Origin: Tachypleus tridentatus
Taxonomy: Eukaryota; Arthropoda; Merostomata; Xiphosura; Limulidae
Length of the DNA stretch: 64,000 bases
NCBI RefSeq assembly: GCF_004210375.1
Contig: NC_134837.1
Coordinates: 21,895,586 to 21,959,585, forward strand
Direction of reading: 5' to 3'
Of the stretch, positions 146-27,300 are shown piece after piece. Positions within the stretch are counted from its first letter, which is position 1. Each line of letters starts with the position of its first letter. The position numbers were made by a program, and so were the translations under genes. The notes under the pieces were generated by a model, which saw only the letters and a list, made by a program, of their open reading frames with translations, was not told the origin of the DNA and ran no database searches.

Positions 146-319
146 TAAGATATCCATATGATTATAATAGTCTTGAGCAATATCTTTGTCAAACAAGTCA
201 GGCTCATCACAAAATGGACACTTCAGCTCAATGATGTTCTGATCTTTGATCTTTACAGTAAAATATGTCTTTAGGCAGTTTCTACATGCCTGATGAGAGC
301 AATTAATCATAGACACCAT
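146..319 (-). CDS. LUBEL (RNF31): LUBEL-like gene, exon 13: RBR RING1 domain
   Basis: 174 bp, 58 codons, acceptor ATTTGTTGCAG/ATG and donor ATCTTA/GTATGT, phase 0. It begins MVSMINCSHQACRNC and contains ELKCPFCDEPDLF. Together with CDLC of the previous exon it completes the RING1 C3HC4 ligand set: C-x2-C, C-x-H-x2-C-x2-C, C-x2-C. The first residue is not an initiator Met; it follows Glu of exon 12. RING1 of RBR ligases recruits the E2~ubiquitin. The HOIP-like YF after the fifth Cys and the terminal DIL support the assignment. The IBR, the catalytic-Cys RING2 and the C-terminal domain must lie left of base 1. Confidence 0.97.
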
Positions 320-3300: not shown

Positions 3301-6300
3301 CATTACTTAACATAAATATGATTTAGATCACTGAAATAAAACAATCAAAAGGGGCAAAAAATAACTCATTTTGCAGAGTTTTGGTTTTCATAGACAGTTC
3401 ATATTTGCTAACTTTGACCTGAAAAAAACTTAAGTACAAAAGTCAAAATGTCATTCCACTCTAAAAATAGGCAAATACAGTCCATTAAAGCCAAAGGTGT
3501 ACTTTACCTAAAATACTTTGAAATAAGATATTTGCACTAATATATGTTTTAATATGAGTTTAAAACAAACTAAACTGTACTTTAGAGGGACATGTAAAGA
3601 ATATACCTGTTCTAGTTCAGGTTGATGTAGTGCAGAACTCTTTTTATCCAAACTAATTTTAGTTGACTGGCTTTTCACTTTCCTGTAAGCACTTTCTTTT
3701 CCACTTCTGTCACATAACTTATCATGCACTTTTTCTCTTTTTCTCATTCCTTCATCATCTACTGAAGGTTTTACATCAGCTGGGGATTCTTCATGATAAT
3801 TTATATCAGCTATTGCCAAACCAGAGGGCATTTCTTCAGTTGTAAATTCACCTTTAGATTTTTCATTTCTGTCATCCAATTTACTATTTACATTTTCTTT
3901 CTTTTGCATATTTCTGTCAATTGACATAGATTTCACATCATCTGAGGTGTTCTGCTGATAAACTTCATCAGATACTGCTAAGCCAGAAGGCTTTTCTTGA
4001 GTTACTGATTTATCTTCAGAGTTTTCAGTTTTATCATAAGATTTATCCTTTACTCTTTCCTTCTTTTGTTTCCTCTCATCTTTCAAAGGTTTCACTTCAC
4101 TTGAGGTCTCCTGCTGAGAACCTTTATCAGGTACTGCTAAGCCAGAAGGCTTTTGTTGAGTTATTGATTCACCTTTAGACTTTTTAATTTTATCATAAGA
4201 TTTATCCTTTACTCTTTCCTTCTTTTGTTTCCTGTCATCTTTTGAAGGTTTCACTTCACTTGAGGTCTCCTGCTGAGAATCTTTATTAGATACTGCTAAG
4301 CCAGAAGGCTTTTCTTGAGTTATTGATTCATTTTTAGACTTTTCAGTTTTATCATAAGATTTGTCCTTTACTCTTTCCTTCTCTTGTTTCTTGTCATCTC
4401 TTGAAGGTTTCACATCACTTGAGGTCTCCTGCTGAGAAACTTCATCAGTTATTGTCAAGCCAGAAGACTTTTCTTTACTTACTGGTTCATCTTTAGGTTT
4501 TTCAGTTTTATCATAACACTTATCATTTTCACTTTCCTTCTTTTCTGTCTTTCTCTCATCTCCTAAAGATTTCACATCGACTGAGGTGTCTGGCTGAGAA
4601 TCTTTATCAGATATTGCTAAACCAGAAGGCTTTTGTTGAGTTACTAATTCATCTTTATACTTTTCAGTTTTATCATAAGATTTATCCTTTACTCTTTCCT
4701 TCTTTTGTTTCTTGTCATCCCTTAAAGGTTTCACATCACCAGAGGTCTCCTGCTGAGAAACTTCATCAGTTATTGTCAAGCCAGAAGACTTTTCTTTACT
4801 TACTGATTCATCTTTAGGTTTTTCAGTTTTATCATAACACTTATCACTTCCACTTTCCTTCTTTTCTGTCTTTCTCTCATCTCCTAAAGATTTCACATCG
4901 ACTGAGGTGTCTGGCTGAGAATCTTTATCAGATACTGCTAAACCAGAAGGCTTTTGTTGAGTTACTGATTCATCTTTAGACTTTTCAGTTTTATCATAAG
5001 ATTTATCCTTTACTCTTTCCTTCTTTTGTTTTTTGTCATCTCTTGAAGGTTTCACATCACTTGAGGACTGCTGAGAAACTTCATAAATTATTGTCAAGCC
5101 AGAAGACTTTTCTTTACTTACTGGTTCATCTTTAGGTTTTTCAGTTTTGTCATAAGATTTATCATTTCCACTTTCCTTCTTTTCTGTCTTTCTCTCATTT
5201 CCTAAAGATTTCACATCGACTGAGGTGTCTGGCTGAGAATCTTTATCAGATATTGCTAAACCAGAAGGCTTTTGTTGAGTTACTGATTCATCTTTAGACA
5301 TTTCAGTTTTATCATAAGATTTATCCTTTACTCTTTCCTTCTTTTGTTTCTTGTCATCTCTTGAAGGTTTCACATCACTTGAGGACTGCTGAGAAACTTC
5401 ATCAATTATTGTCAAGCCAGAAGACTTTTCTTTATTTACTGGTTCATCTTTAGGTTTTTCAGTTTTATCATAAGACTTATCATTTCCACTTTCCTTCTTT
5501 TCTGTCTTTCTCTCATCTTCTAAAGATTTCACATCGACTGAGGTGTCTGGCTGAGAATCTTTATCAGATATTGCTAAACCAGAAGGCTTTTGTTGAGTTA
5601 CTGATTCATCTTTAGACTTTTCAGTTTTATCATAAGATTTATCCTTTACTCTTTCCTTCTTTTGTTTCTTGTCATCCCTTAAAGGTTTCACATCACTTGA
5701 GGTCTCCTGCTGAGAAACTTCATCAGTTATTGTCAAGCCAGAAGAGTCTTCTTTACTTACTGGTTCATCTTTAGGTTTTTCAGTTTTATCATAAGACTTA
5801 TCATTTCCACTTTCCTTCTTTTCTGTCTTTCTGTCATCTCCTAAAGATATCACATCACATGAAGTATCTGGCTGAGAAACTTTATCTGATACTGCTAAGA
5901 CAGAAGGCTTTCCTTGAGCTATTGATTCATCTTTAGACTTTTCATTTTCGTTATAAGTTTTATCTTTTACCTTCTTTTCAATCTTTCCATCATGTTTATC
6001 AGAGGGTTTATCATCAGATTTATCATGTATCTTAACAAAATGTGCATCATCCTTATCTAATGATCTTTCTAAAGATTCTTCCTTTTTTTTCTTTATTTCA
6101 GTTACTTCCTCTTTTTGCTCAGGTTTACTAGCTGCTTTTACAGGATGTGCAACCTCAACTGAAATTTTATTATCACAGATTTCACCTTTCATATTTATTT
6201 CAAGGCACTTTCCATTATCTTCATGTTTATCAGATAGTTTCACATAATGTGCCCCACCAACTAATTGTTTGTCTGAAGTTTCTTTACTTTTTTCCTCTAT

Positions 6301-9300
6301 TTCAGATCTTCCATTTTTCTCCTCAATTTCATTAAATTGTTCAGAAATGTACATCTTCTCAATCGTTATTTCTTTCACAGATTCTTCATTTATCTGTTTG
6401 ATATTAACTTCCCCCTGCCTTTTCTCAGGTCCATCTGATGGTTTGACAGAATGTGCATTAGTATTAAATGAGTTATCTAAACTTTCTCCACATTTCTCTT
6501 TTATCTCATCCTCTTTTTTATCATAATGCATATCCTTATTCAATGATTTATTCAAAGATTCTTCACTTTTTCTCTTTATTGCTGATTTCATCTCAATCTT
6601 ATTAGATTCAGATGATTCTACATTAACTATATCCTCAATCAATGGTTTATCTGAAATTTTTTCACTTTTATCCTTCAGTTCATCTTTTTTATTCTCTTGA
6701 ACAGACTCAGTAGATTGTTGAACAGATTTTCTATCACTTGTCATCAGGTTTCCTAGTGATTCTTCAATTTTTCTTTTACTTCAAGTTTCATTTCTTTCTC
6801 TTCAGGCTTGACAGGTGATTTGACAAAATGTGATTCATCAGTGACAGGTCTATCTAAAATTTCTTCAAGCTTTTTCTTTCTTTCACCCATTTTACCTTTT
6901 TTGTCAAGCTCACCAGATTGTTTAATAGAATGTTCATCTTCAATGAAAGATTTATCAAAAGATTCTTCAGTTTTCGTTTTTGTTTCAGACTTCCTTTCAA
7001 TCTTATCATGTTCATCAGGTGATTTTATTGAAAGAATATCCTCAGCCAATGACTTGTGTAAAGGTTTTTCACTTTTGTCCTTTATTTCATCCTTTTTATC
7101 CTCCTCAACAGTCTCAGTAGATAGTTGAACAGATTTTGCATCCTCAGTTATTAGGTTTCCTAATGATTCTTCAATTTTCTCTTTCACTTCAAGTTTCTTT
7201 TCTTTCTCTTGAAGCTTATCAGATGATTTGCATAAATGTAATTCATCAGTGACAACTCTATCTAAAGTTTCTTCAGGCTTTTTCTCTATATCATTCTTTT
7301 TATATATTTTGTCAGGCTCACCAGATTCTGTAACAGAATGTTCATCTTCAACCAATGATTTATCCAAAGATTCTTCAGTTTTGGTTTTTATTTCAGACTT
7401 TCTTTCAACCTCATCATGCTTACCAGATATATCCTCAGCCAATGGCTTATGCAAAGGTTTTTCACTTTTGTCCTTTATTTCATCCTTTTCATCCTCCTCA
7501 ACAGTCTCAGTAGATAGTTGAACAGATTTTGCAACCTCAGTTATGAGGTTTCTTAATGATTCTTCAATTTTCTCTTTTACTTCAAGTTTCATTTCTTTCT
7601 CTTCAGGCTTCTCAGATGATTTGACAAAATGTGATTCATCAGTGACAACTCTATCTAAAGTTTCTTCAGGCTTTTTCTCTGTATCATCCTTTTCACATAT
7701 TTTGTCAGGCTCACCAGATTCTGTAGCAGAATGTTCATCTTCAACCAATGATTTATGCAAAGATTCTTCAGTTTTCGTTTTTATTTCAGACTTTCTTTCA
7801 ATCTTGTCATGCTTACCAGATATATCCTCAGCCAATGGCTTATGTAAAGGTTTTTCTCTTTTATCCTTTATTTCATCCTTTTTATCCTCCTCAACTGACA
7901 GTTGGACAGATTTTGCATCCTTAGTCATTAGGTCTTCTGGTGATTCTTGAATTTTCTCTTTTACTTCAAGTTCCATTTCTTTTTCTTCAGGCTTGGCAGG
8001 TGGTTTAACAAAATGTGATTCATCAGTGACAACTCTACCTGCAGTTTCTTCGGGCTTTTTCTCTCTATCATCCTTTTCACACATTTTGTCAGGCTCACCA
8101 AATTGTTTAAGAGAATGTTCATCTTGAATCATACATTTATCCAAAGATTCTTCAGTTTTCGTTTTTATTTCAGACTTTCTTTCAATGTTATCATGCTTAC
8201 CAGATATATCCTCAGTCAATGGCTTATGTAAAGGTTTTTCACTTTTGTCCTTTATTTCATCCTTTATATCCTCCTCAACAGTCTCAGTAGATAGTTGAAC
8301 AGATTTTGCATCCTCAGTTATGAGGTTTCCTAATGATTCTTCAATTTTCTCTTTTACTTCAAGTTTTATTTCTTTCCCTTCAGGTTTGGCAGATAATTTG
8401 ACAAAATGTGATTCATCAGTGACAACTCTATCTAAAGTTTCTTCAGGCTTTTTCTCTGTATCAACCTTTTCACATATTTTGTCAGGCTCAGCAGATTCTG
8501 TAACAGAATGTTCATCTTCAACCAATGATTTATCCAAAGATTCTTCAGTTTTGGTTTTTACTTCAGACTTTCTTTCAACCTTATCATGCTTACCAGATAT
8601 ATCCTCAGCCAATGGCTTATGTGAAGGTTTTTCTCTTTTATCCTTTATTTCATCCTTTTTTTCCTCCTCAACAGTCTCAGTAGATAGTTGAACAGATTTT
8701 GCATCCTCAGTTATGAGGTTTCCTAATGATTCTTCAATTTTCTCTTTTACTTCAAGTTTCATTTCTTTCTCTTCAGGCTTGGCAGGTGGTTTCACAAAAT
8801 GAGATTCATCAGTGAGAACTCTACCTGCAGTTTCTTCAGGCTTTTTCTCTCTATCATCCTTTTCACACATTTTGTCAGGCTCACCAAATTGTTTAAGAGA
8901 ATGTTCATCTTGAATCAAAGATTTATCCAAAGATTCTTCAGTTTTCGTTTTTATTTCAGACTTTCTTTCAATATTATCATGCTTACCAGATATATCCTCA
9001 GCCAATGGCTTATGCAAAGGTTTTTCACTTTTGTCCTTTATTTCATCCTTTTTATCCTCCTCAATAGTAGATAGTTGTACAGATTTTGCATCCTTAGTCA
9101 TTAGGTTTTCTGGTGATTCTTGAATTTTATCTTTTACTTCAAGTTTCATTTCTTTCTCTTCAGGCTTGGCAGGTGGTTCAACAAAATGTGATTCGTCAGT
9201 GAGAACTCTACCTGCAGTTTCTTCAGGCTTTTTCTCTATATCATTCTTTTTATATATTTTGTCACGCTCACCAGATTCTGTAACAGAATGTTCATCTTCA

Positions 9301-12300
9301 ACCAATGATTTATGCAAAGATTCTTCAGTTTTGGTTTTTACTTCAGACTTTCTTTCAATCTTTTCATGCTTACCAGATATATCCTCAGCCAATGGCTTAT
9401 GTAAAGGTTTTTCTCTTTTATCCTTTATGTTATCCTTTTTATCCTCCTCAACTGACAGATGGACAGATTTTGCATCCTTAGTCATTAGGTCTTCTGGTGA
9501 TTCTTGAATTTTCTCTTTTACTTCAAGTTCCATTTCTTTTTCTTCAGGCTTGGCAGGTGGTTTAACAAAATGTGATTCATCAGTGACAACTCTACCTGCA
9601 GTTTCTTCGGGCTTTTTCTCTCTATCATCCTTTTCACACATTTTGTCAGGCTCACCAAATTGTTTAAGAGAATGTTCATCTTGAATCAAAGATTTATCCA
9701 AAGATTCTTCAGTTTTCGTTTTTATTTCAGACTTTCTTTCAATGTTATCATGCTTACCAGATATATCCTCAGTCAATGGCTTATGTAAAGGTTTTTCACT
9801 TTTGTCCTTTATTTCATCCTTTTTATCCTCCTCAACAGTCTCAGTAGATAGTTGAACAGATTTTGCATCCTCAGTTATGAGGTTTCCTAATGATTCTTCA
9901 ATTTTCTCTTTTACTTCAAGTTTCATTTCTTTCCCTTCAGGTTTGGCAGATAATTTGACAAAATGTGATTCATCAGTGACAACTCTATCTAAAGTTTCTT
10001 CAGGCTTTTTCTCTATATCAACCTTTTCACATATTTTGTCAGGCTCAGCAGATTCTGTAACAGAATGTTCATCTTCAACCAATGATTTATCCAAAGATTC
10101 TTCAGTTTTGGTTTTTATTTCAGACTTTCTTTCAACCTCATCATGCTTACCAGATATATCCTCAGCCAATGGCTTATTCAAAGGTTTTTCACTTTTATCC
10201 TTTATTTCATCCTTTTTCTCCTCCTCAACAGTCTCAGTAGATAGTTGAACAGATTTTGCATCCTCAGTTATGAGGTTTCCTAATGATTCTCCAATTTTTT
10301 TTTTTACTTCAAGTTTTATTTCTTTCCCTTCAGGTTTGGCAGATAATTTGACAAAATGTGATTCATCAGTGACAACTCTATCTAAAGTTTCTTCAGGCTT
10401 TTTCTCTGTATCAACCTTTTCACATATTTTGTCAGGCTCAGCAGTTTCTGTAACAGAATGTTCATCTTCAACCAAAGATTTATCCAAAGATTCTTCAGTT
10501 TTCGTTTTTACTTCAGACTTTCTTTCAACCTTATCATGCTTACCAGATATATCCTCAGCCAATGGCTTATGTGAAGGTTTTTCTCTTTTATCCTTTATTT
10601 CATCCTTTTCATCCTCCTCAACAGACTCAGTAGATAGTTGGACAGATTTTGCATCCTTAGTCATTAGGTTTTCTTGCGATTCTTCAATTTTCTCTTTTAC
10701 TTCAAGTTTCATTTCTTTCTCTTCAGGCTTGGCAGGTGGTTTCACAAAATGAGATTCATCAGTGAGAACTCTACCTGCAGTTTCTTCAGGCTTTTTCTCT
10801 CTATCATCCTTTTCACACATTTCGTCAGGCTCACCAAATTGTTTAAGAGAATGTTCATCTTGAATCAAAGATTTATCCAAAGATTCTTCAGTTTTCGTTT
10901 TTATTTCAGACTTTCTTTCAATATTATCATGCTTACCAGATATATCCTCAGCCAATGGCTTATGCAAAGGTTTTCACTTTTGTCCTTTATTTCATCCTTT
11001 TATCCTCCTCAACAGACTCAGTAGATAGTTGTACAGATTTTGCATCCTTAGTCATTAGGTTTTCTGGTGATTCTTGAATTTTATCTTTTACTTCAAGTTT
11101 CATTTCTTTCTCTTCAGGCTTGGCAGGTGGTTCAACAAAATGTGATTCGTCAGTGAGAACTCTACCTGCAGTTTCTTCAGGCTTTTTCTCTATATCATCC
11201 TTTTTTATATATTTTGTCAGGCTCACCAGATTCTGTAACAGAATGTTCATCTTCAACCAATGATTTATGCAAAGATTCTTCAGTTTTGGTTTTTACTTCA
11301 GACTTTCTTTCAATCTTTTCATGCTTACCAGATATATCCTCAGCCAATGGCTTATGTAAAGGTTTTTCTCTTTTATCCTTTATTTCATCCTTTTTATCCT
11401 CCTCAACTGACAGATGGACAGATTTTGCATCCTTAGTCATTAGGTCTTCTGGTGATTCTTGAATTTTCTCTTTTACTTCAAGTTCCATTTCTTTTTTCTT
11501 CAGGCTTGGCAGGTGGTTTAACAAAATGTGATTCATCAGTGACAACTCTACCTGCAGTTTCTTCGGGCTTTTTCTCTCTATCATCCTTTTCACACATTTT
11601 GTCAGGGTCACCAAATTGTTTAAGAGAATGTTCATCTTGAATCATACATTTATCCAAAGATTCTTCAGTTTTCGTTTTTATTTCAGACTTTCTTTCAACC
11701 TTATCATGCTTACCAGATATATCCTCAGACAATGGCTTATGTGAAGGTTTTTCTCTTTTATCCTTTATTTCGTCCTTTTTCTCCTCCTCAACAGACGCAG
11801 TAAATAGTTGGACAGATTTTGCATCCTTAGTCATTAGGTTTTCTGGCGATTCTTCAATTTTCTCTTTTACTTCAAGTTTCATTTCTTTCTCTTCAGGCTT
11901 GGCAGGTGGTTTAACAAAATGTGATTCATCAGTGAGAACTCTACCTGCAGTTTCTTCAGGCTTTCTCTCTGTATCATCCCTTTCACACATTTTGTCAGGC
12001 TCACCAAATTGTTTAAGAGAATGATCATCTTGAATCAAAGATTTATCCAAAGATTCTTCAGTTTTCGTTTTTATTTCAGACTTTCTTTCAATGTTATCAT
12101 GCTTACCAGATATATCCTCAGTCAATGGCTTATGTAAAGGTTTTTCACTTTTGTCCTTTATTTCATCCTTTTTATCCTCCTCAACAGTCTCAGTAGATAG
12201 TTGAACAGATTTTGCATCCTCAGTTATGAGGTTTCCTAATGATTCTTCAATTTTCTCTTTTACTTCAAGTTTTATTTCTTTCCCTTCAGGTTTGGCAGAT

Positions 12301-15300
12301 AATTTGACAAAATGTGATTCATCAGTGACAACTCTATCTAAAGTTTCTTCAGGCTTTTTCTCTGTATCAACCTTTTCACATATTTTGTCAGGCTCAGCAG
12401 TTTCTGTAACAGAATGTTCATCTTCAACCAAAGATTTATCCAAAGATTCTTCAGTTTTCGTTTTTACTTCAGACTTTCTTTCAACCTTATCATGCTTACC
12501 AGATATATCCTCAGCCAATGGCTTATGTGAAGGTTTTTCTCTTTTATCCTTTATTTCATTCTTTTCATCCTCCTCAACAGACTCAGTAGATAGTTGGACA
12601 GATTTTGCATCCTTACTCATTAGGTTTTCTTGCGATTCTTCAATTTTCTCTTTTACTTCAAGTTTCATTTCTTTCTCTTCAGGCTTGGCAGGTGATTTAA
12701 CAAAATGAGATTCATCAGTGAGAACTCTACCTGCAGTTTCTTCAGGCTTTTTCTCTCTATCATCCTTTTCACACATTTTGTCAGGCTCAGCAAATTGTTT
12801 AAGAGAATGTTCATCTTGAATCAAAGATTTATCCAAAGATTCTTCAGTTTTCGTTTTTATTTCAGACTTTCTTTCAATATTATCATGCTTACCAGATATA
12901 TCCTCAGTCAATGGCTTATGCAAAGGTTTTTCACTTTTGTCCTTTATTTCATCCTTTTTATCCTCCTCAACAGTCTCAGTAGATAGTTGAACAGATTTTG
13001 CATCCTCAGTTATGAGGTTTCCTAATGATTCTTCAATTTTCTCTTTTACTTCAAGTTTCATTTCTTTCTCTTCAGGCTTGGCAGGTGGTTTAACAAAATG
13101 AGATTCATCAGTGAGAACTCTACCTGCAGTTTCTTCAGGCTTTTCCTCTCTATCATCCTTTTCACACATTTCGTCAGGCTCACCAAATTGTTTAAGAGAA
13201 TGTTCATCTTGAATCAAAGATTTATCCAAAGATTCTTCAGTTTTCGTTTTTATTTCAGGCTTTCTTTCAATATTATCATGCTTACCAGATATATCCTCAG
13301 CCAATGGCTTATGCAAAGGTTTTTCACTTTTGTCCTTTATTTCATCCTTTTTATCCTCCTCAACTGACAGTTGGACAGATTTTGCATCCTCAGTTATGAG
13401 GTTTCCTAATGATTCTTCAATTTTTTCTTTTACTTCAAGTTTCATTTCTTTCTCTTCAGGCTTGGCAGGTGGTTTAATAAAATGAGATTCATCAGTGAGA
13501 ACTCTACCTGCAGTTTCTTCAGGCTTTTTCTCTCTATCATCCTTTTCACACATTTCGTCAGGCTCACCAAATTGTTTAATAGAATGTTCATCTTGAATCA
13601 AAGATTTATCCAAAGATTTTTCAGTTTTCGTTTTTATTTCAGACTTTCTTTCAACCTTATCATGCTTACCAGATATATCCTCAGCCAATGGCTTATGTGA
13701 AGGTTTTTCTCTTTTATCCTTTATTTCATCCTTTTTCTCCTCCTCAACAGACGCAGTAAATAGTTGGACAGATTTTGCATCCTTAGTCATTAGGTTTTCT
13801 GGCGATTCTTCAATTTTCTCTTTTACTTCAAGTTTCATTTCTTTCTCTTCAGGCTTGGCAGGTGGTTTAACAAAATGTGATTCATCAGTGAGAACTCTAC
13901 CTGCAGTTTCTTCAGGCTTTCTCTCTGTATCATCCCTTTCACACATTTTGTCAGGCTCACCAAATTGTTTAAGAGAATGATCATCTTGAATCAAAGATTT
14001 ATCCAAAGATTCTTCAGTTTTCGTTTTTATTTCAGACTTTCTTTCAACCTTATCATGCTTACTAGATATATCCGCAGCCAATGGCTTATACAAAGGTTTC
14101 TCACTTTTATCCTTTATTTCATCCTTTTTATCCTCCTCAACAGACTCAGTAGATAGTTGAACAGATTTTGCATCCTCAGTTATGAGGTTTCCTAATGATT
14201 CTTCAATTTTCTCTTTTACTTCAAGTTTGTTTTCTTTCTCTTCAGGCTTATCAGATGATTTGACAAAATGTGATTCATCAGTGACAACTCTATCTAAAGT
14301 TTCTTCAGGCTTTTTCTCTGTATCAACCTTTTCACATATTTTGTCAGGCTCACCAGATTCTGTAACAGAATGTTCATCTTCAACCAAAGATTTATCCAAA
14401 GATTCTTCAGTTTTGGTTTTTACTTCAGACTTTCTTTCAACCTTATCATGCTTACCAGATATATCCTCAGCCAATGGCTTATGTGAAGGTTTTTCTCTTT
14501 TATCCTTTATTTCATCCTTTTCATCCTCCTCAACAGACTCAGTAGATAGTTGGACAGATTTTGCATCCTTAGTCATTAGGTTTTCTTGCGATTCTTCAAT
14601 TTTCTCTTTTACTTCAAGTTTCATTTCTTTCTCTTCAGGCTTGGCAGGTGATTTAACAAAATGAGATTCATCAGTGAGAACTCTACCTGCAGTTTCTTCA
14701 CGCTTTTTCTCTCTATCATCCTTTTCACACATTTTGTCAGGCTCACCAAATTGTTTAAGAGAATGTTCATCTTGAATCAAAGATTTATCCAAAGATTCTT
14801 CAGTTTTCGTTTTTATTTCAGACTTTCTTTCAATATTATCATGCTTACCAGATATATCCTCAGTCAATAGCTTATGCAAAGGTTTTTCACTTTTGTCCTT
14901 TATTTCATCCTTTTTATCCTCCTCAACAGTCTCAGTAGATAGTTGAACAGATTTTGCATCCTCAGTTATGAGGTTTCCTAATGATTCTTCAATTTTCTCT
15001 TTTACTTCAAGTTTCATTTCTTTCTCTTCAGGCTTGGCAGGTGGTTTAACAAAATGAGATTCATCAGTGAGAACTCTACCTGCAGTTTCTTCAGGCTTTT
15101 CCTCTCTATCATCCTTTTCACACATTTTGTCAGGCTCACCAAATTGTTTAAGAGAATGTTCATCTTGAATCAAAGATTTATCCAAAGATTCTTCAGTTTT
15201 CGTTTTTATTTCAGACTTTCTTTCAATATTATCATGCTTACCAGATATATCCTCAGCCAATGGCTTATGCAAAGGTTTTTCACTTTTGTCCTTTATTTCA

Positions 15301-18300
15301 TCCTTTTTATCCTCCTCAACTGACAGTTGGACAGATTTTGCATGCTCAGTTATGAGGTTTCCTAATGATTCTTCAATTTTTTCTTTTACTTCAAGTTTCA
15401 TTTCTTTCTCTTCAGGCTTGGCAGGTGGTTTAACAAAATGTGATTCATCAGTGAGAACTCTACCTGCAGTTTCTTCAGGCTTTTTCTCTCTATCATCCTT
15501 TTCACACATTTTGTCAGGCTCACCAAATTGTTTAAGAGAATGTTCATCTTGAATCAAAGATTTATCCAAAGATTTTTCAGTTTTCGTTTTTATTTCAGAC
15601 TTTCTTTCAACCTTATCATGCTTACCAGATATATCCTCAGCCAATGGCTTATGTGAAGGTTTTTCTCTTTTATCCTTTATTTCATCCTTTTTCTCCTCCT
15701 CAACAGACGCAGTAAATAGTTGGACAGATTTTGCATCCTTAGTCATTAGGTTTTCTGGCGATTCTTCAATTTTCTCTTTTACTTCAAGTTTCATTTCTTT
15801 CTCTTCAGGCTTATCAGATGATTTGACAAAATGTGATTCATCAGTGACAACTCTATCTAAAGTTTCTTCGGGCTTTTTCTCTGTATCATCCTTTTTATAT
15901 ATTTTGTCAGGCTCACCAGATTCTGTAACAGAATGTTCATCTTCAACCAATGATTTATCCAAAGATTCTTCAGTTTTGGTTTTTATTTCAGACTTTCTTT
16001 CAATCTTATCATGCTTACTAGATATATCTTCACCCAATTTCTTATGTAAAGGTTTTTCACTTTTATCCTTTATTTCATCATTTTTATCCTCCTCAATAGA
16101 CTCAGTAGATAGTTGGACAGATTTTGCATCCTTAGTCATTAGGTTTTCTAGTGATTCTTCAATTTTCTCTTTCACTTCAAGTTTCTTTTCTTTCTCTTCA
16201 GGTTTGGCAGATAATTTGACAAAATGTGATTTATCAGTGACAACTCTATCTAAAGTTTCTTCAGGCTTTTTCTCTGTATCATCCTTTTGATATATTTTGT
16301 CAGGCTCACCAGATTCTGTAACAAAATGTTCATCTTCAATCAAAGATTTATCCAAAGATTCTTCAGTTTTGGTTTTTATTTCAGACTTTCTTTCAATCTT
16401 ATCAGATAGGTTAAACAACTGTTCATCAGTCTCATTGTAAGATTTATCCAAAAATTCTTCATATTTCTTTTTTATTTCTGGTTTCTTTCGTTTTTTGTCA
16501 GGTTCTCCAACTGGTTTAATATAATGTGCTCCCTCATTACATGATTTTTCCAAAGAACCTTTGCTTATTTTCTTTATTTCATATTTTTCCTCTTTTTCAA
16601 ATGTTTCATCAGGTGACATATCTGGTTTGTCACCATTAAGAGATTCTAACCTTCTATCATCTCCAAAATTAATGCAATGAGATTCCAATGAGTTACCAGC
16701 CATCAGAGGATCTGCTTCATCTTCAGCTGTAGAATAATTAAATAGAGATTTAAATCTTTCATCAGCAGCAAAATACCAAGGATGCGAGTTTGATTCTTCT
16801 TCACCTGTAGAATACTCAGCCAATGATTCTAGTCTTTCATCAGCTGTAGAATATCCAGCCAATGATTCCAGTCTTTCATCAGCTGTAGAATATCCAGCTA
16901 ATGATTCTAGTCTTTCATCAGCTGTACAATATCCAACCAGTGATTCCAGTGTTTCATCAGCTGTAGAATATCCAGCCAATGATTCTAATCTTTCATCGGC
17001 TGTAGAATATCCAGCTAATGATTCTAGTCTTTCATCAGCTGTAGAATATCCAACCAATGATTCCAGTCTTTCATCAGCTGTAGAATATCCAGCCAATGAT
17101 TCTAGTATTTCATCAGCTGTAGAATATCCAGCCAATGATTCTAGTCTTTCATCAGCTGTAGAATATCCAGCCAATGATTCTAGTCTTTCATCAGCTGTAG
17201 AATATCCAGCCAATGATTCTAGTCTTTCATCAGTTGTAGAATATCCAGCCAATGATTCTACTCTTTCATCAGCTGTAGAATATCTAAAATAGGATTCTGC
17301 TTCTTCTTCAACAGTAGAATAATCAAAGAATGATTTTGATATATTATCAGCTGCAGAGTGAGCAATATTTGATTCAGAATATAAAGTTTCAGTTTGACTA
17401 AGATCTGCATCAATAAACGACTTGCTTATGTCACACAATGATGTTGTATTCTCCAGAAACAAAATATCATGTTCTTTTTTTCCTTCTGGCATGTTTATGA
17501 TCTCATAATCATCAAGAGTAGAATGATTGGACATTTCTTCCAACTTTCTCATGCTATTCCCAAGCCTTTGGGTGGTACAGTTGGTTGTAGAACTAAAGTC
17601 TATTACTTCATAGTCTTCCTCACTCAAAACTTCAGACCATTTTGGCTGTTCTCCAAAATATTCACACACTATAAAATCAGTTTCATCCTCACTTTCAACA
17701 TCAGCACCTACAGATTCACTCCCAGAATGGCTTTCAACAGAATCCATTTCAAATTCATGTTCTTCTTCTATTCTGTTTGGTAGACAAGCAGAGTCGCATT
17801 CTTCTCTTTTCTCTGACAAACTAGAAAAATTTAAAGTTTCAGTATTAACCTGCTCATACAACTCCATATCATGCTTTTGCACTTTTTTCTCAGACAGAAT
17901 AGCAGAATTGAAATCATAACCATTCTCACCTGCATACAATTCCAATCCATGTTCTACATCCGTTTTGTCTGACAAACTTACAATTTTTAAATATTCATCA
18001 TCAACTTCTTTAGAAAGTTTCAACTCACTTGCTTCTTTTATTTCTTCTGATACTCTAGAAGATTTTAAATCATAATTATCATCCTTCTCATGCATTTCTA
18101 GTTCAAATTCTTCATATGTTCTGTCTGATGAATTAAGATATTTTAAATCCTTCTCCTCACACAGTTCAAATTCATATGCTTCATCTATTCTGTGTGACAA
18201 ATTAGAATATTCTAAATCTTCAAGATCATTTTCTTCATACAGTTCCATTTTAGGTTCTTCTCCTGTTCTGTTTGATAAACTACCAAATTTTAAGTCATCA

Positions 18301-21300
18301 ACATCATCCTGCTCATACAGTTCAAATTCATGTTCTTGTACTCTTTTCTCTTTGTCAAAACAGAAATTAGCAACGTCTTCACACAGATTCAGTCCTGGTC
18401 CAGGTCCTTCTCCTATTCTCTCTGATAAACTAGCAGATTTTGAATTCTGATTCTCATCCTCTACACACAGATTATATTCATTTTCTTCCTCTATTCTGTC
18501 TGACAAACTAGCATATTTTAAATACTCAATATTGTCCAGCATATATAGTTTCAATTCATTTTCTTCCTCTATTCTGTCTGATAATCTAGCAGATCTTATA
18601 TTTTCAATGTCATCCTGCATATATAGTTTCAGTTCATCTTCCTCTATCCTATCTGACAATCTAGCAGATTTTATATTCTCAGTGTCATCCTTCATATACA
18701 GTTTCAATTCTTCTTCTTCCTCTATTCTGTCTGACAATCTAGCAGATCTTATATTCTCAGTGTCATCCTCCATATATAATACCAAATCGTCTTCTTCCTC
18801 TATTCTGTCTGATGATCTAGTAGATTTTGTATTCTCAGTGTCATCCTCCATATATAGTTTCAATTCATCTTCTTCCTCTATTCTGTCTGATGATCTAGTA
18901 GATTTTATATTCTCAGTGTCATCCTCCATATATAATACCAAATTGTCTTCTTCCTCTATTCTGTCTGACAATTTAGCAGATTTTATATTCTCAGTGTAAT
19001 CCTTCGTATATAGTTTCAGTTCATCTTCTTCCTCTATTGTCTCTGATGATCTCCCAGATTTTACATTCTCAGTGTCATCTTGCATATATAATGACAAATC
19101 ATTTTCTTCCTCTATTCTGTCTGACAATCTAGCAGATCTTATATTCTCAGTGTCATCCTCCATATATAGTTTCAATTCATCTTCTTCCTCTATTCTGTCT
19201 GATGATCTAGTAGATTTTGTATTCTCAGTGTCATCCTCCATATATAGTTTCAATTCATCTTCTTCCTCTATTCTGTCTGATGATCTAGTAGATTTTATAT
19301 TCTCAGTGTCATCCTCCATATATAATACCAAATCGTCTTCTTCCTCTATTCTGTCTGATGATCTAGTAGATTTTGTATTCTCAGTGTCATCCTCCATATA
19401 TAGTTTCAATTCATCTTCTTCCTCTATTCTGTCTGATGATCTAGTAGATTTTATATTCTCAGTGTCATCCTCCATATATAATACCAAATCGTCTTCTTCC
19501 TCTATTCTGTCTGACAATTTAGCAGATTTTATATTCTCAGTGTAATCCTTCGTATATAGTTTCAGTTCATCTTCTTCCTCTATTGTCTCTGATGATCTCC
19601 CAGATTTTACATTCTCAGTGTCATCTTGCATATATAATGACAAATCATTTTCTTCCTCTATTCTGTCTGACAATCTAGCAGATCTTATATTCTCAGTGTC
19701 ATCCTCCATATATAGTTTCAATTCATCTTCTTCTTCTATTCTGTATGATGATCCAACAACTTTTATATTTTCAATGTCATCCCTCACATATAGTTTCAGT
19801 TCATCTTCTTCCTCTATTCTGTCTGACAATCTAGCAGATTTTATATTCTCATTGTCATCCTCCATATATAGTTTCAATTCATCTTCTTCCTCTATTCTGT
19901 CTGACGATCTAGTAGATTTTATATATTCAATGTCATCCTCCATATATAATACCAAATCGTCTTCTTCCTCTATTCTGTCTGATGATCTAGTAGATTTTGT
20001 ATTCTCAGTGTCATCCTCCATATATAGTTTCAGTTCATCTTCTTCCTCTCTTCTGTCTGATGATCCAACAACTTTTATATTTTCAATGTCATCTCTCACA
20101 TATAGTTTCAGTTCATCTTCTTCTTCTATTCTCTCTGATGATCTACCAGATTTTATATTCTCAGTGTCATCCTCCATATATAATACCAAATCATCTTCTT
20201 CCTCTGTTCTGTCTGACAATTTAGCAAATTTTATATTCTCAGTGTCATCCTTCGTATATAATTTCAATTCATTTTCTTCCTCTATTCTGTCTGATGATCT
20301 ACTAGATTTTATATTCTCAGTGTCATCCTCCATATATAATACCAAATCGTCTTCTTCCTCTGTTCTGTCTGACAATTTAGCAGATTTTATATTCTCAGTG
20401 TAATCCTTCGTATATAGTTTCAGTTCATCTTCTTCCTCTATTGTCTCTGATGATCTCCCAGATTTTACATTCTCAGTGTCATCTTGCATATATAATGACA
20501 AATCATTTTCTTCCTCTATTCTGTCTGACAATCTAACAGATCTTATATTCTCAGTGTCATCCTCCATACAAAGTTTCAATTCATCTTCTTCCTCTATTCT
20601 GTCTGACGATCTAGTAGATTTTATATATTCAGTGTCATCCTCCATATATAATACCAAATCATCTTCTTCCTCTGTTCTGTCTGACAATTTAGCAAATTTT
20701 ATATTCTCAGTGTCATCCTTCGTATATAATTTCAATTCATTTTCTTCCTCTATTCTGTCTGATGATCCACTAGATTTTATATTCTCAGTGTTATCCTCCA
20801 TATATAATACCAAATCGTCTTCTTCCTCTGTTCTGTCTGACAATTTAGCAGATTTTATATTCTCAGTGTAATCCTTTGTATATAGTTTCAGTTCATCTTC
20901 TTCCTCTATTGTCTCTGATGATCTCCCAGATTTTACATTCTCAGTGTCATCTTGCATATATAATGACAAATCATTTTCTTCCTCTATTCTGTCTGACAAT
21001 CTAACAGATCTTATATTCTCAGTGTCATCCTCCATACAAAGTTTCAATTCATCTTCTTCCTCTATTCTGTCTGACGATCTAGTAGATTTTATATATTCAA
21101 TGTCATCCTCCATATATAATACCAAATCGTCTTCTTCCTCTATTCTGTCTGATGATCTAGTAGATTTTGTATTCTCAGTGTCATCTTGCATACATAATGA
21201 CAATTTATCTTCCTTTTTCTTGTCTGACAATCTAAGATGTTTTGTATTGTCCTCCTCATCCATTTCACACAATTCAACTTCATGTTCTTCACCTACTCCA

Positions 21301-24300
21301 CCTGACAAATTTACATACCTTAAATCCTTGTTGACTTCAATTTGCTCAGACTGTTCCAAACCAAATTCCTCTTCTATTCTGTCTGACAGTAATTCCTCTG
21401 TCACAATATTACCTGAGTGCAATATTTTGCTCTCATTACTACGATCATCCTTCAAAATATCCCCTGCTACAGTGTTCACCAACATGTCAGTATTTATTTC
21501 AAACTGATGTCTTTCAAGGTGATTCACATTCTGGCTTTCTGTTTCAAGTTTGGATGAAGAACTGGTTTCAGTATGTCTATCTTCCTTCATATTTGTTTGA
21601 AGCTTATGAACAGAAACAGTTTCAGGTTGGCTTTCTTCCTTTATGTCTCTTTCAAACTTGTGCATAGGACACTTCTCTTCCTTTTTATCTGTTTCAATCA
21701 CATGTACAGAACTGGTTTCAGGATGCATCTCTTCCTTCCTATCTCTTTCAAGCTTGTGTACAAAACTGATTTCAGAGTGCCTTTCTTCCTTTTTATCTGT
21801 TTCAACTTTATGTATAGAAATGGTTTCAGGATCCATCTCTTCCTTCTTTTCTGTTTCAAGTTTATCTACACAAATAGTTTCAGGATGCCTCTCTTCCTTC
21901 TTATCTGTTTCAATTTTGTCTATACAAATGGTTTCAGTATGCTCGTTTTCCTTCTTATCTGCTTCAAAGTTGCCTATACAAATAGTTTCAGGATGTCTCT
22001 CTTCCTTCCTATCTCTTTCAAGCTTCTGTAAAGAAATGGTTTCAGAGTACCTCTCTTCCTTTTTATCTGTTTCAACCTTATGTATAGAACTGGTTTCAGG
22101 AATTATCTCTTCCTTATGTTCTATTTCAAATTTCTCTGTACAAATAGTTTCAGGATGCCTCTCTTCCTTCTTATCTGTTTCAATTTTGTCTATACAAATG
22201 GTTTCAGTATGCTCGTTTTCCTTCTTATCTGCTTCAAAGTTGCCTATACAAATAGTTTCAGGATGTCTCTCTTCCTTCCTATCTCTTTCAAGCTTCTGTA
22301 AAGAAATGGTTTCAGAGTACCTCTCTTCCTTTTATCTGTTTCAACCTTATGTATAGAACTGGTTTCAGGAATTATCTCTTCCTTATGTTCTATTTCAAAT
22401 TTCTCTGTACAAATAGTTTCAGGATGCCTCTCTTCCTTCTTATCTGTTTCAATTTTGTCTATACAAATGGTTTCAGTATGCTCGTTTTCCTTCTTATCTG
22501 CTTCAAAGTTGCCTATACAAATAGTTTCAGGATGTCTCTCTTCCTTCCTATCTCTTTCAAGCTTCTGTAAAGAAATGGTTTCAGAGTACCTCTCTTCCTT
22601 TTATCTGTTTCAACCTTATGTATAGAACTGGTTTCAGGAATTATCTCTTCCTTATGTTCTATTTCAAATTTCTCTGTACAAATAGTTTCAGGATGCCTCT
22701 CTTCCTTCTTATCTGTTTCAATTTTGTCTATACAAATGGTTTCAGTATGCTCGTTTTCCTTCTTATCTGCTTCAAAGTTGCCTATACAAATAGTTTCAGG
22801 ATGTCTCTCTTCCTTCCTATCTCTTTCAAGCTTCTGTAAAGAAATGGTTTCAGAGTACCTCTCTTCCTTTTTATCTGTTTCAACCTTATGTATAGAACTG
22901 GTTTCAGGAATTATCTCTTCCTTATGTTCTATTTCAAATTTCTCTGTACAAATAGTTTCAGGATGCCTCTCTTCCTTCTTATCTGTTTCAATTTTGTCTA
23001 TACAAATGGTTTCAGTATGCTCGTTTTCCTTCTTATCTGCTTCAAAGTTGCCTATACAAATAGTTTCAGGATGTCTCTCTTCCTTCCTATCTCTTTCAAG
23101 CTTCTGTAAAGAAATGGTTTCAGAGTACCTCTCTTCCTTTTATCTGTTTCAACCTTATGTATAGAACTGGTTTCAGGAATTATCTCTTCCTTATGTTCTA
23201 TTTCAAATTTCTCTGTACAAATAGTTTCAGGATGCCTCTCTTCCTTCTTATCTGTTTCAATTTTGTCTATACAAATGGTTTCAGTATGCTCGTTTTCCTT
23301 CTTATCTGCTTCAAAGTTGCCTATACAAATAGTTTCAGGATGTCTCTCTTCCTTCCTATCTATTTCAAGCTTCTGTAAAGAAATGGTTTCAGAGTACCTC
23401 TCTTCGTTTTTATCTGTTTCAACCTTATGTATAGAACTGGTTTCAGGAATGATCTCTTCCTTATGTTCTATTTCAAATTTCTCTGTACAAATAGTTTCAG
23501 GATGCCTCTTTTCCTTCTTATCTGTTTCAATTTTGTCTATACAAATGGTTTCAGTATGCTCGTTTTCCTTCTTATCTGCTTCAAAGTTGCCTATACAAAT
23601 AGTTTCAGGATGTCTCTCTTCCTTCCTATCTCTTTCAAGCTTCTGTATAGAAATGGTTTCAGAGTACCTTTCTTCCTTTTTATCTGTTTCAACCTTATGT
23701 ATAGAACTGGTTTCAGGAATTATCTCTTCCTTATATTCTATTTCAAATTTATCTGTACAAATAGTTTCAGGATGCCTCTCTTCCTTGTTATCTGTTTCAA
23801 GTTTGTGTGCACAACTGGTTTTAGTATGTCTATCATCCTGCCTATCTGCTTCACTACTCTGTGTAGATATATTTTCAGGGTGCCTTTCTTCCTTCATATA
23901 TGTTTCAAGCTTCTGTACAGGATGTTTATCTTCCTCCCTGTGTGTTTCTAGCTTGTGTATAGGACTAGTTTCTGGATGCCTCTCTTCCTTTCTATCTCTT
24001 TCAACCTTATGTACAGAACTGGTTTCAGGATGCCTCTCTTCCCTCATACCTGCTTCAAGTTTAGCTATGCAAATAGTTTCAGGATGCCTCTCTTCCTTTC
24101 TATCTCTTTCAAGCTTGTGTACAGAACTGGTTCCGGAGTGCCTCTCTTCCTTGTCTGTTTCAACCTTATGTATAGAACTGGTTTCAGGATCCATCTCCTC
24201 CTTCTTGTCTGTTTCAAATTTGTCTATACAAATAGTTTGAGGATGCCTCTCTTCCTTCTTATCTACTTCAAGTTTGTCTATACAAATAGTTTCAGGATGC

Positions 24301-27300
24301 CTCTCTTCCCTTCTGTGAGTTTCAAGCTTGTGTATAGAACGGATTTCAGGATGGCTTTCTACTTTCATATCTATTTCAAGATGTCTCTCCTCCTTCTTAT
24401 TTTCTTTTCCAAATGTTTGTAGAGAGCTGATTTCAAAACGTTTCAAAGGATCCTTGTCTGTATCCAAGTACTTTATGGTTTTGGTTTCATCTCTGCTTTT
24501 ATTGAGCTTTTGTCCTGAATTTATTAAATGAGACTTTGTTAAATTATCATATTTCATAGAGTCTTCATCACATTGGAAACCTGAACTATCACTTAAAGAA
24601 ATATGGTGATTACCTATATTAACGTTTTTATCCTCAACATAAAAATTTTGATTTTCTCTATCAGAAAGTTGGTGCACATTAGTATTTTTTGTTTCTCTGT
24701 CAGTAAAATAATATTCTGTGCTATTTTGCTCATCACTAGTATAAAGATTTTGTCTTCCATGCTGTGAAAGAGGGAGGCCTTGTGTTATATATTCTTCTTC
24801 ATATATACAAGACCCTTCCATTTGTATCTCATCATTATCACTTTTCTCTTTACTACAATAAGGATACTGTGTTTGTGCATCAGAAATGGGACAACCATCT
24901 GTAAAATATTCTTTTACATCAATATAAAAATCTTGAGGCCTTACATCATGAAGTTGATTACCATCTTTGACCTTTTCCTCTTTACCAATATAATGATATT
25001 GGGTTTCTAACTCAGAAAGTTTTAACCTATCTGTGGTGAATTTGTTTTCAACAACAATATTTTCTTGGGATTCTATTAACCCTCTTGTTTGATTAACATT
25101 AATCACATTAGTATACAAGTTTTCTGCTTCCTCTTCTTTGTCATTAGCTTCTAAATTCATCATTGTTGATTTCTGTTGAATCTTACTTTCCTTTTGAATC
25201 AAAGCTAATTTGCTAAGGAAACCAGAATTTCGAAGATTTGTCTTTGTATCTTTCTCTTCTGTCATGTAATTATTATTATGATTGTGAGCTACTGTTTGCT
25301 GGGTACTGACAGTGTTTTCTGTCTCTCCTGAATAGGTTCTTGACCTATTAGATACTGGAGAGGGACAGAGAAGATTATGTTCACTGTTACCTTTGGTTCT
25401 TTCTTCTAAGTTTGAGATATGTTGTAGAAATGGTGTCATTGCTGATTTTGCCAAAGCAGAATATGCCTTTTCTATATTGCCCTCATTCGTTGTTAATGCC
25501 AAAGCTATTTCTTTTGTTGGAAAGTTTCCTCGTGACATTAACTCGAGAAACTAAAAAATATATATAATATAGGTGAGTTTCCTTTTCTACCACATACTTT
25601 TATTATTAAAATAAAAAAATTTGAACAAAAATGGAAAAAGTGACATGTATCTGTTTTTATAAGTGTTATATACATAGAATTATCCTACAACTCAATTTGA
25701 GCATTATTAGATACATATGTACAAAATAAATTTGAAGTTGCATATTTAGAACTATTGGAAAAACAGGTTTACAAAATATATTTTTGTTATATTCTTTTGT
25801 TTTTTAATAATTATCAAACATTTACAAAACAGAAATATCTTATGTAAGCTTAAAACATCACTTGCAAAGGTTAATAAGTTAAAACATGTCACAAAGCTAA
25901 AATGTATTGCACAATAAAACTTTAATAAAAAGGACAACAAGTAATTATTGTAAACTAAAGGTAAGTTTTTAGATTCTGTCAATAGTTTTAACAACTGGCC
26001 AGGATTAGCTAAGGGATCTAATCACTTGAATAGTATAAAGATTTTTTTTATTTGTGTAAACAGTCCTTCTCAGGGTTCTCTAGGACATTTCTTATAGTAT
26101 ATCTACATGGACCTTGACCACAACCATGAGGTCAACCTAAAACTACGTTGATTTCCTTATTGTGCTAGGCACTGCTTAACCAAGATGGCTTCTAGTTCAG
26201 ACTAAGGCTTGATAATTGCCTTAGTAGAGCCATGTTCTATATACCATAGAACTACCCAAAAACAACCAAAATGAAATCAACCAACAAAAAGAAGACACCC
26301 AAAAGTCCCAACTCACACAATGCTCAACTGCTGATGCTGAGGAACTGAACACCCCCTGCACCATGTCTAAAACTACCTTTCAAACGTCACCAGAAGTCCT
26401 CATCAGAGGAGTCACAGGCATTTATAGACAGCCTCATGCAGCTAGAAAACTTCACTAACTGTTCCCAACAATCATATTCACTAATATATTCTGCCTACCC
26501 AAGACAGGCATCATTGTGAAGTGCACACAACCTAAGGAGTACATCATGATTCTCATGTCCTGTCCAGATATTGCCTTCAGGGAAAGGAACTTGTCAGTCA
26601 AAAGGACCTGAAGTCTACCCTTGGATATCTCTAAGCAAGAGATCAATGATGAATTGAAAATCCAGAGGATCAATGTCACCAGAGTAGAGCACATAAAATC
26701 TACCAGAACAAGCCTTATAATTCCTTTAGTCCATTTTACCTACAACCTAAAGATGACAGAAAACCTTATCTGTGATGCTATCACCTTATGGTAACTTCAC
26801 CACACTTTTGAACCCTTCAAAGCTAATGCTCCCGAACTAGTACAGTGCTTCAACTGACAGCATTTCAAGTATACTAAGATCACCTGTACTGCAGCTACTA
26901 GATGTGTCCAGTATAGAGACCATCACCAAGTAACTGAATGACCCAATATAAGAAAAGTTACCTGCTCCAATTGTAGACGACAACACACCTTATCTTACCA
27001 ATGATGCATGAAATTCAAAGCCATTTTAGATTTACTCCACTAAGCCCTCAACCCCACCAGTAAAGACCCACAACCACAGTCCATAGGAATCTGTCATTGA
27101 ATACCTTTTACCACAACTATCAAACTACCTTAAAACCTTAAACATCAACCAGCATTACTTTGAAGACCTATGCTGAAGCAGTTCAATTCCTGTCTTCTAA
27201 AGTCAAAATAAAAACTCACTTACTAGTGTTGTATGCCTGAATCACCACCTTTTTGAACAATGTATTCTTGATTTGCCATGAAAACACCACCATCAGTGAC

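Follow-up and report, generated by a model that had tools for sequence, protein, structure and literature searches.

A tandem-repeat coding exon of about 22 kb in a LUBEL-type ubiquitin ligase gene of the horseshoe crab Tachypleus tridentatus

We analyzed a stretch of 64,000 nucleotides (the window) from the horseshoe crab Tachypleus tridentatus (RefSeq assembly GCF_004210375.1, contig NC_134837.1, here C13, positions 21895586-21959585), and extended the searches to the whole genome of 2.17 Gb in 205 contigs. The minus strand of the window carries a gene of the LUBEL type, a family related to the human ubiquitin ligase HOIP (RNF31), in which the spacer between two ubiquitin-associated (UBA) regions is encoded by one very large exon, the giant exon. 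The parts of the gene within the window, in the direction of transcription, are the following.

63889..64000, minus strand: part of a B-box-like open stretch that continues beyond the window on its right (whole, C13:21959474-21959848)
35858..36322, minus strand: open stretch that includes the exon for a zinc finger of the NZF/RanBP type, conserved in the paralog; PF00641 scores under its cut-off
32737..33000, minus strand: exon just before the giant exon, with the first half of the HOIP-type UBA pair (PF16678)
3607..25550, minus strand: giant coding exon, 7,316 codons, phase 0/0, with eight one-base frame breaks
25416..25544, minus strand: HOIP-type UBA pair, second half (positions 106-148 of PF16678), within about the first 45 residues encoded by the giant exon; conserved with the paralog on contig C1
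681..875, minus strand: following exon, phase 0, with a UBA2-like stretch (PF00627, sub-threshold) and the first RING1 cysteines
146..319, minus strand: RING1 exon; the IBR, RING2 and linear-chain determining domain (LDD) exons continue left of the window

The assignment of this gene to the LUBEL rather than the HOIP type is supported by its layout, since the giant exon opens within the HOIP-type UBA pair and stops short of UBA2 and RING1, and exons for the RBR-LDD module follow. Across the junction of the preceding exon and the start of the giant exon, the Pfam model UBA_HOIP matched with an E-value of 2.9e-37, and in the giant exon alone it still scored 27.2 bits (cut-off 22.4; E 4.3e-6). 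In the catalytic part, E3_UbLigase_RBR was found at E 1.7e-24, the linear-chain determining domain (PF18091) at 86.2 bits against a cut-off of 23, and IBR and IBR_1 above their cut-offs, with the generic RING models below theirs. RNF31 chains were the best PDB matches of the gene from RING1 to the LDD; a joined piece of 409 residues matched the human RNF31 RBR chain 5edv at 1.9e-90 with the RING2 GGC aligned. The second UBA, adjoining RING1, lies where it does in the fly protein and scored 13.9 bits with PF00627, under the cut-off of 22.4; the model was not listed for C1. The B-box and NZF stretches were likewise weak (PF22586, 17.7 bits, and PF00641, 23 bits; cut-off 27 for both), and both are conserved in the paralog. 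No PUB domain was found near the C13 or the C1 locus, the single genome match lying on contig C8, in a six-frame search at E up to 0.1 that a split exon could escape. By family membership, the product is predicted to be a Met1-linked (linear) ubiquitin chain ligase. The joined codons number 88 + 7,316 + 409; with the N-terminal exons that are visible by homology, the protein is estimated at more than 8,000 residues in total.

Two further observations concern introns of this gene. The one after the RING2 exon apparently starts with GC (AGG/GCAAGT, around C13:21879186), where the paralog has GT. A 67-bp minisatellite of about 53 copies occupies positions 48152-51706 of the window, in what appears to be an intron upstream of the giant exon.

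The giant exon has ordinary splice sites at both borders (TTTTTTAG/TTTCTCGAG at the 5′ border and CTAGAACAG/GTATAT at the 3′ border). Of its 21,944 bases, 21,536 lie in six minus-strand open runs of at least 120 residues, and two gaps are bridged by shorter runs. A dynamic-programming path based on codon usage placed the eight one-base frame breaks near positions 23141, 22602, 22333, 11495, 11209, 11001, 10972 and 6767, and their net shift brings the exon from 21,944 to 21,948 bases, that is, 3 x 7,316, joined in phase 0 to both neighbouring exons, as is also the case in the C1 paralog. All eight breaks fall in tandem arrays as delimited by Tandem Repeats Finder (TRF), at or beside runs of A, with none in the unique parts; three of them are an identical shift, in three of seven anchored copies of a 90-residue repeat. 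We read the breaks as residual base-call errors, with array copies too alike to correct; real variants are possible. No stop codon occurs among the 7,308 codons read, and the 821 codons outside the arrays would be free of stops by chance with P ~3e-33, as calculated from base composition. A first-pass annotation, made from the window alone, had proposed a single coding exon of about 22 kb and some 7,300 residues, with eight one-base indels and a corrected length in phase with its neighbours, in a LUBEL/HOIP-type ligase of great size, and these proposals stand, the type being narrowed to LUBEL. Its placement of the exon between a UBA-like domain and RING1 holds broadly and is refined here to a span from the second half of the HOIP UBA pair to just before the UBA2-like stretch and RING1. 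Its remark that the exon is free of transposon insertions agrees with the open frame and with a Pfam scan in which no transposon family turned up, a transposon-library search not having been made.

Five tandem arrays with different units (18/90, 26, 13, 131 and 53/106 residues) account for 17,939 of the 21,944 bases, or 82%, of the giant exon. In the direction of transcription they are as follows.

21674..24380, minus strand: array of an 18-residue unit in a 90-residue (270-bp) higher-order repeat, with the three identical frame breaks
18413..21212, minus strand: array of an acidic 26-residue unit (SDRIEEEDELKLYMEDDTENIKSTRS-like), ~36 copies (TRF)
16797..17284, minus strand: array of a 13-residue unit (YSTADERLESLAG), ~12.5 copies (TRF)
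6628..16404, minus strand: array of a 131-residue (393-bp) unit, 25 anchored copies, in a five-unit (1,956-bp) higher-order repeat, with five frame breaks
3804..5970, minus strand: array of a lysine/serine-rich 53-residue (159/318-bp) unit

In each of the five arrays the period given by TRF is divisible by three; a minor row of 1.9 copies between arrays has a period of 22. Matches within the main TRF rows range from 74 to 92%. In the 131-residue array, most of the 24 intervals between anchored copies are 131 or 128 codons, and identity is 94.6% at a lag of 1,956 bp and 89-93% at other lags; two of its units, searched against the genome, gave 22 matches, every one inside the giant exon.

Several candidate domains in the repeats were rejected. 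A reading of the 26-residue repeat as resembling a ubiquitin-interacting motif (UIM) had no Pfam or pattern support: UIM gave no match in a piece of that array (E up to 1) or in five runs covering most of the exon (E up to 0.1), and its core pattern is absent from all five unit consensuses. At the 13-residue array, a PCF11 RFEG-repeat match reached 29.6 and 20.4 bits against a cut-off of 43. In the run at 6756-10973, within the 131-residue array, Ubiq-Cytc-red_N (30.8 bits, cut-off 22.9) and Mustang (27.3 bits, cut-off 27) passed their whole-protein cut-offs with no single stretch passing, and we take both for weak scores summed over repeat copies. The remaining sub-threshold matches in the spacer were set aside as composition effects, and NCBIfam gave nothing above cut-off in five array pieces.

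A second LUBEL gene lies on the plus strand of contig C1 (50.11-50.19 Mb), with exons collinear with those of the C13 gene from the B-box to the LDD, diverged linkers excepted. In a genome profile search that scores best candidates only, UBA_HOIP gave four matches at the two loci and none at a third, each half of the pair being above cut-off, and PF18091 likewise gave four, at the C13 and C1 loci. The C1 exon homologous to the giant exon (C1:50153926-50156574) is also in phase 0/0 and has 883 codons, compared with 7,316 in C13. The two spacers align significantly over the first 45 residues only (58% identity; all other alignments E at least 1.8). The C1 spacer contains one two-copy repeat of 300 nt (88% identity) and has a net charge of +10 with 28% charged residues, vs. 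-721 and 46% in C13. Over 518 codons from eleven chosen ungapped exon pieces, the paralogs share 55% of residues, with proportions of differing sites of 0.25 for replacements (pN) and 0.845 for silent changes (pS) and a fourfold-site identity of 33%. Since silent sites are saturated and pN is 0.25, the duplication is old and replacement changes have been held down; the saturation led us to drop dating by silent sites. A putative genome duplication is the likely origin of the pair.

Other features of the pair were noted along the way. The UBA_HOIP scores were 128.4 bits for C13 and 158.8 for C1, C13 being the copy with less resemblance to the HOIP family. In the C1 gene, the exon that encodes the C terminus of the LDD occurs as two tandem copies (C1:50184782-50185104), each with splice-like borders, and these twins are possible mutually exclusive exons. 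An open run of 351 residues at 34296-35348 of the window had no significant BLAST match in the C1 paralog. Intronic stretches at about 37300-41600 of the window and at C1:50127800-50133300 show translated similarity of ~42-63% in the same order; they are probably decayed copies of one transposon family, and three window stretches tested from this shared similarity had no Pfam match.

The array copies allow selection on the spacer to be gauged. We compared codons with the consensus of their array, using only codons one base off the consensus and counting each distinct one-base variant once, in 24 units of 131 residues, 6 of 90, 33 of 26, 13 of 13 and 11 of 53, degenerate edges and linkers being excluded. 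The pooled omega (replacement relative to silent change) was 1.04, from 55 silent and 161 replacement variants, where 56.7 silent variants are expected without selection. By array (131, 90, 26, 13 and 53 residues) it was 1.03, 0.47, 1.12, 0.68 and 1.30, the two low values resting on 6 and 15 variants. No variant was a stop, against 9.1 expected (P 9e-5), and with twelve base-specific rates omega became 0.89 and the expected stops 13.05 (again none; P 2e-6); these P values are guides, because variants inside one array are not fully independent. A coarser count, in which codons with several changes were split into single steps, gave 77 charge-changing replacements of 193 (88.5 expected, p 0.11) and 32 new hydrophobic residues of 193 (28.1 expected, p 0.41), with no clear departure from neutrality; it contained four apparent stop steps against 10.6 expected, and no actual stop codon. 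With omega at about 0.9-1.0 and no stops where 9-13 are expected, the frame is under selection and the residues, at this resolution, are not.

A close known relative is LUBEL of Drosophila (CG11321), for which the available text of the describing paper gives 2,892 residues in the representative isoform, in agreement with the first-pass annotation (about 2,900), and constructs spanning UBA1 at 1042-1187 and UBA2 at 2457-2513 (PMC5090701). It has in common with the horseshoe crab gene the HOIP-type UBA1, a long spacer, UBA2 beside RING1, the RBR-LDD module, a B-box and an NZF finger, and no PUB domain in the layout given there, and it differs in having ~1,270 residues between UBA1 and UBA2, vs. 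~7,270 in the horseshoe crab (PMC5090701). The giant exon therefore sits in a spacer that is already long in flies. LUBEL of the shrimp Penaeus vannamei, an arthropod HOIP homolog, is also presented in the portion available as having an RBR and lacking PUB (PMC12154395).

Taking these observations together, we favor the view, which we consider likely, that the C13 gene is a functional-looking LUBEL with a real, translated and probably disordered inter-UBA tether that grew by in-frame tandem duplication and whose residues, and perhaps length, are nearly free to vary. Under this proposal, the inter-UBA spacer exon would have reached 7,316 codons through several rounds of duplication, and the resulting chain would tether the recruiting part of the protein (B-box, NZF and HOIP-type UBA) to its catalytic part (UBA2-RBR-LDD). 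Growth would be tolerated because residue identity hardly matters, and the frame would be held because the catalytic domain lies downstream and must be translated. The translated spacer would amount to 846 kDa with 46% charged residues and a net charge of about -721. Its low mean hydropathy and high charge place all nine sub-regions beyond the Uversky charge-hydropathy boundary, on the side of disorder. The giant exon would be retained whole in the mRNA and give a flexible acidic chain, presumably disordered in the cell, in which residues, and perhaps length, drift nearly freely and which may work purely as a linker. The first-pass annotation had suggested a giant scaffold that clusters linear-ubiquitin synthesis; the neutral change in the arrays speaks against a scaffold that depends on its sequence and is more in line with a tether or passive filler.

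Several points weigh against this view. Disorder of the spacer is judged on composition only, and neutral replacement rates are equally expected of a dispensable region. The eight breaks, if real, would end translation early. Six donor-like GTRAGT sites lie inside the giant exon. Acceptor-like pyrimidine-AG sites number three there vs. 21 in 27 kb of mostly intronic sequence, and AGGTRAG occurs once vs. 4.9 times expected from codon-shuffled controls; for four of the five splice-like patterns, counts in those controls were about as low, so we rejected this depletion as proof of exon status and draw nothing from the scarcity. The C13 gene is also less like RNF31 than its paralog (human RNF31 RBR, 306.9 vs. 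366.5 bits), and relaxed constraint on the whole gene is possible; yet pN is 0.25 over the 518 unique codons, with silent sites saturated.

One alternative, which we regard as doubtful, is that length itself is functional and was selected after sub- or neofunctionalisation of one paralog, because it extends the reach of the enzyme or provides a scaffold, condensate-like, on which linear ubiquitin is made. No stop has closed the frame even though copies in the 131-residue array differ by ~5-11%, the expansion occurred in one of two paralogs only, and the fly spacer is long too, from the end of UBA1 at 1187 to the start of UBA2 at 2457 in the constructs described (PMC5090701). However, the downstream catalytic domain explains the open frame without selection on length, and the charge class and hydrophobicity of the replacements are as expected (p 0.11 and 0.41). 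We think it rather unlikely that one LUBEL paralog, after a genome duplication, became a tethered ligase in which a selected, length-polymorphic polyelectrolyte joins the recruitment of substrates to the synthesis of linear chains, with a contour length that 7,316 residues would put in the micrometre range, and with only length and charge, rather than sequence, as the trait inherited.

Alternative splicing is the main complication for a tether encoded by the whole exon. The giant exon could be used mainly in non-catalytic adapter isoforms, or be skipped in catalytic ones, since both borders are in phase 0 and skipping keeps the frame; among the annotated fly LUBEL polypeptides, as summarized in the accessible text, three of seven lack UBA2 or the RBR domain (PMC5090701). 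Skipping would, however, delete the second half of the HOIP UBA pair (PF16678 106-148), which is 58% identical in the paralog, and such an isoform switch strikes us as unlikely. A decaying gene, with real breaks and a C13 copy that is a pseudogene or encodes a truncated protein, is very improbable: the breaks number eight, with three identical in three of seven anchored 90-residue copies, and C13 is the copy less like human RNF31, but every break lies in a tandem array at or beside an A run and none in unique parts, the 7,308 codons read hold no stop, and neither the splice sites nor the sequence signatures of the RBR and UBA regions look damaged. Least of all do we credit a misassembly that inflated array length: the copies are alike (74-92% matches within main TRF rows; in the 131-residue array, 89-95% depending on the lag) and the frame breaks suggest imperfect base calls in arrays, but the five arrays have different units set apart by unique linkers, and the 131-residue copies show many differences that follow a regular order of five units, the outermost copies being degenerate, which argues against a simple copy error.

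Human HOIP totals about 1,070 residues; by sequence it shares the UBA_HOIP pair and the RBR-LDD module with the C13 gene, and it differs in having no giant spacer. It also has a PUB domain, according to the part of the fly study at hand (PMC5090701), whereas none was found near the horseshoe crab loci. Exon size itself is not unprecedented: exons of MUC4 reach 22 kb, and its very large exon 2, which consists mainly of tandem repeats in frame, holds a variable array of 7.5-19 kb, as described in the available text (PMC2360313). MUC4 differs in being a mucin, in which one 48-bp unit is repeated and the length is known to be polymorphic (PMC2360313), vs. a ubiquitin ligase with five different arrays. 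RNF213 is likewise a giant E3 ligase, and differs in that it is predicted to be mostly structured and, described as the largest human E3, has a mass of 591 kDa in the portion available (PMC7311170), vs. 846 kDa for the horseshoe crab spacer alone. In open-access literature on LUBEL/HOIP evolution, chelicerates and horseshoe crabs, no giant LUBEL or similar ubiquitin ligase was described among the matches listed, in keeping with the first-pass annotation, which knew of no LUBEL protein this large. Among those matches, the sole paper with both LUBEL and horseshoe crab was PMC8191737; "LUBEL" also matched a paper on a mite genome (PMC6275457), where it is the name of an author, and "ubiquitin" was not found in the main text, as far as available, of one horseshoe crab genome paper (PMC7210998).

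Outside the LUBEL loci, the genome searches gave 19 coagulin-like matches in all, with loci at C11:9016804-9022066, C11:42.93-42.96 Mb, C7:19.2-20.5 Mb and C7:29.07 Mb and a group on C7. The four pieces of one cluster on C11 together span positions 1-70 and 75-174 of the 174-position profile (best E 1.5e-25). To our knowledge, the coagulin family is known only from horseshoe crabs, and these genes accordingly point to a horseshoe crab as the source of the genome.

If the giant exon is expressed whole, the C13 product would, as an E3 ligase, far exceed the 591 kDa given for RNF213 in the text available (PMC7311170), and would be a signalling-enzyme counterpart of the giant mucin exons. In its arrays, selection keeps the frame open and is not visible at the level of residues. 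With spacers of 883 and 7,316 codons in the same place and between the same flanking domains, the paralog pair would constitute a natural experiment on spacer length in linear ubiquitination.

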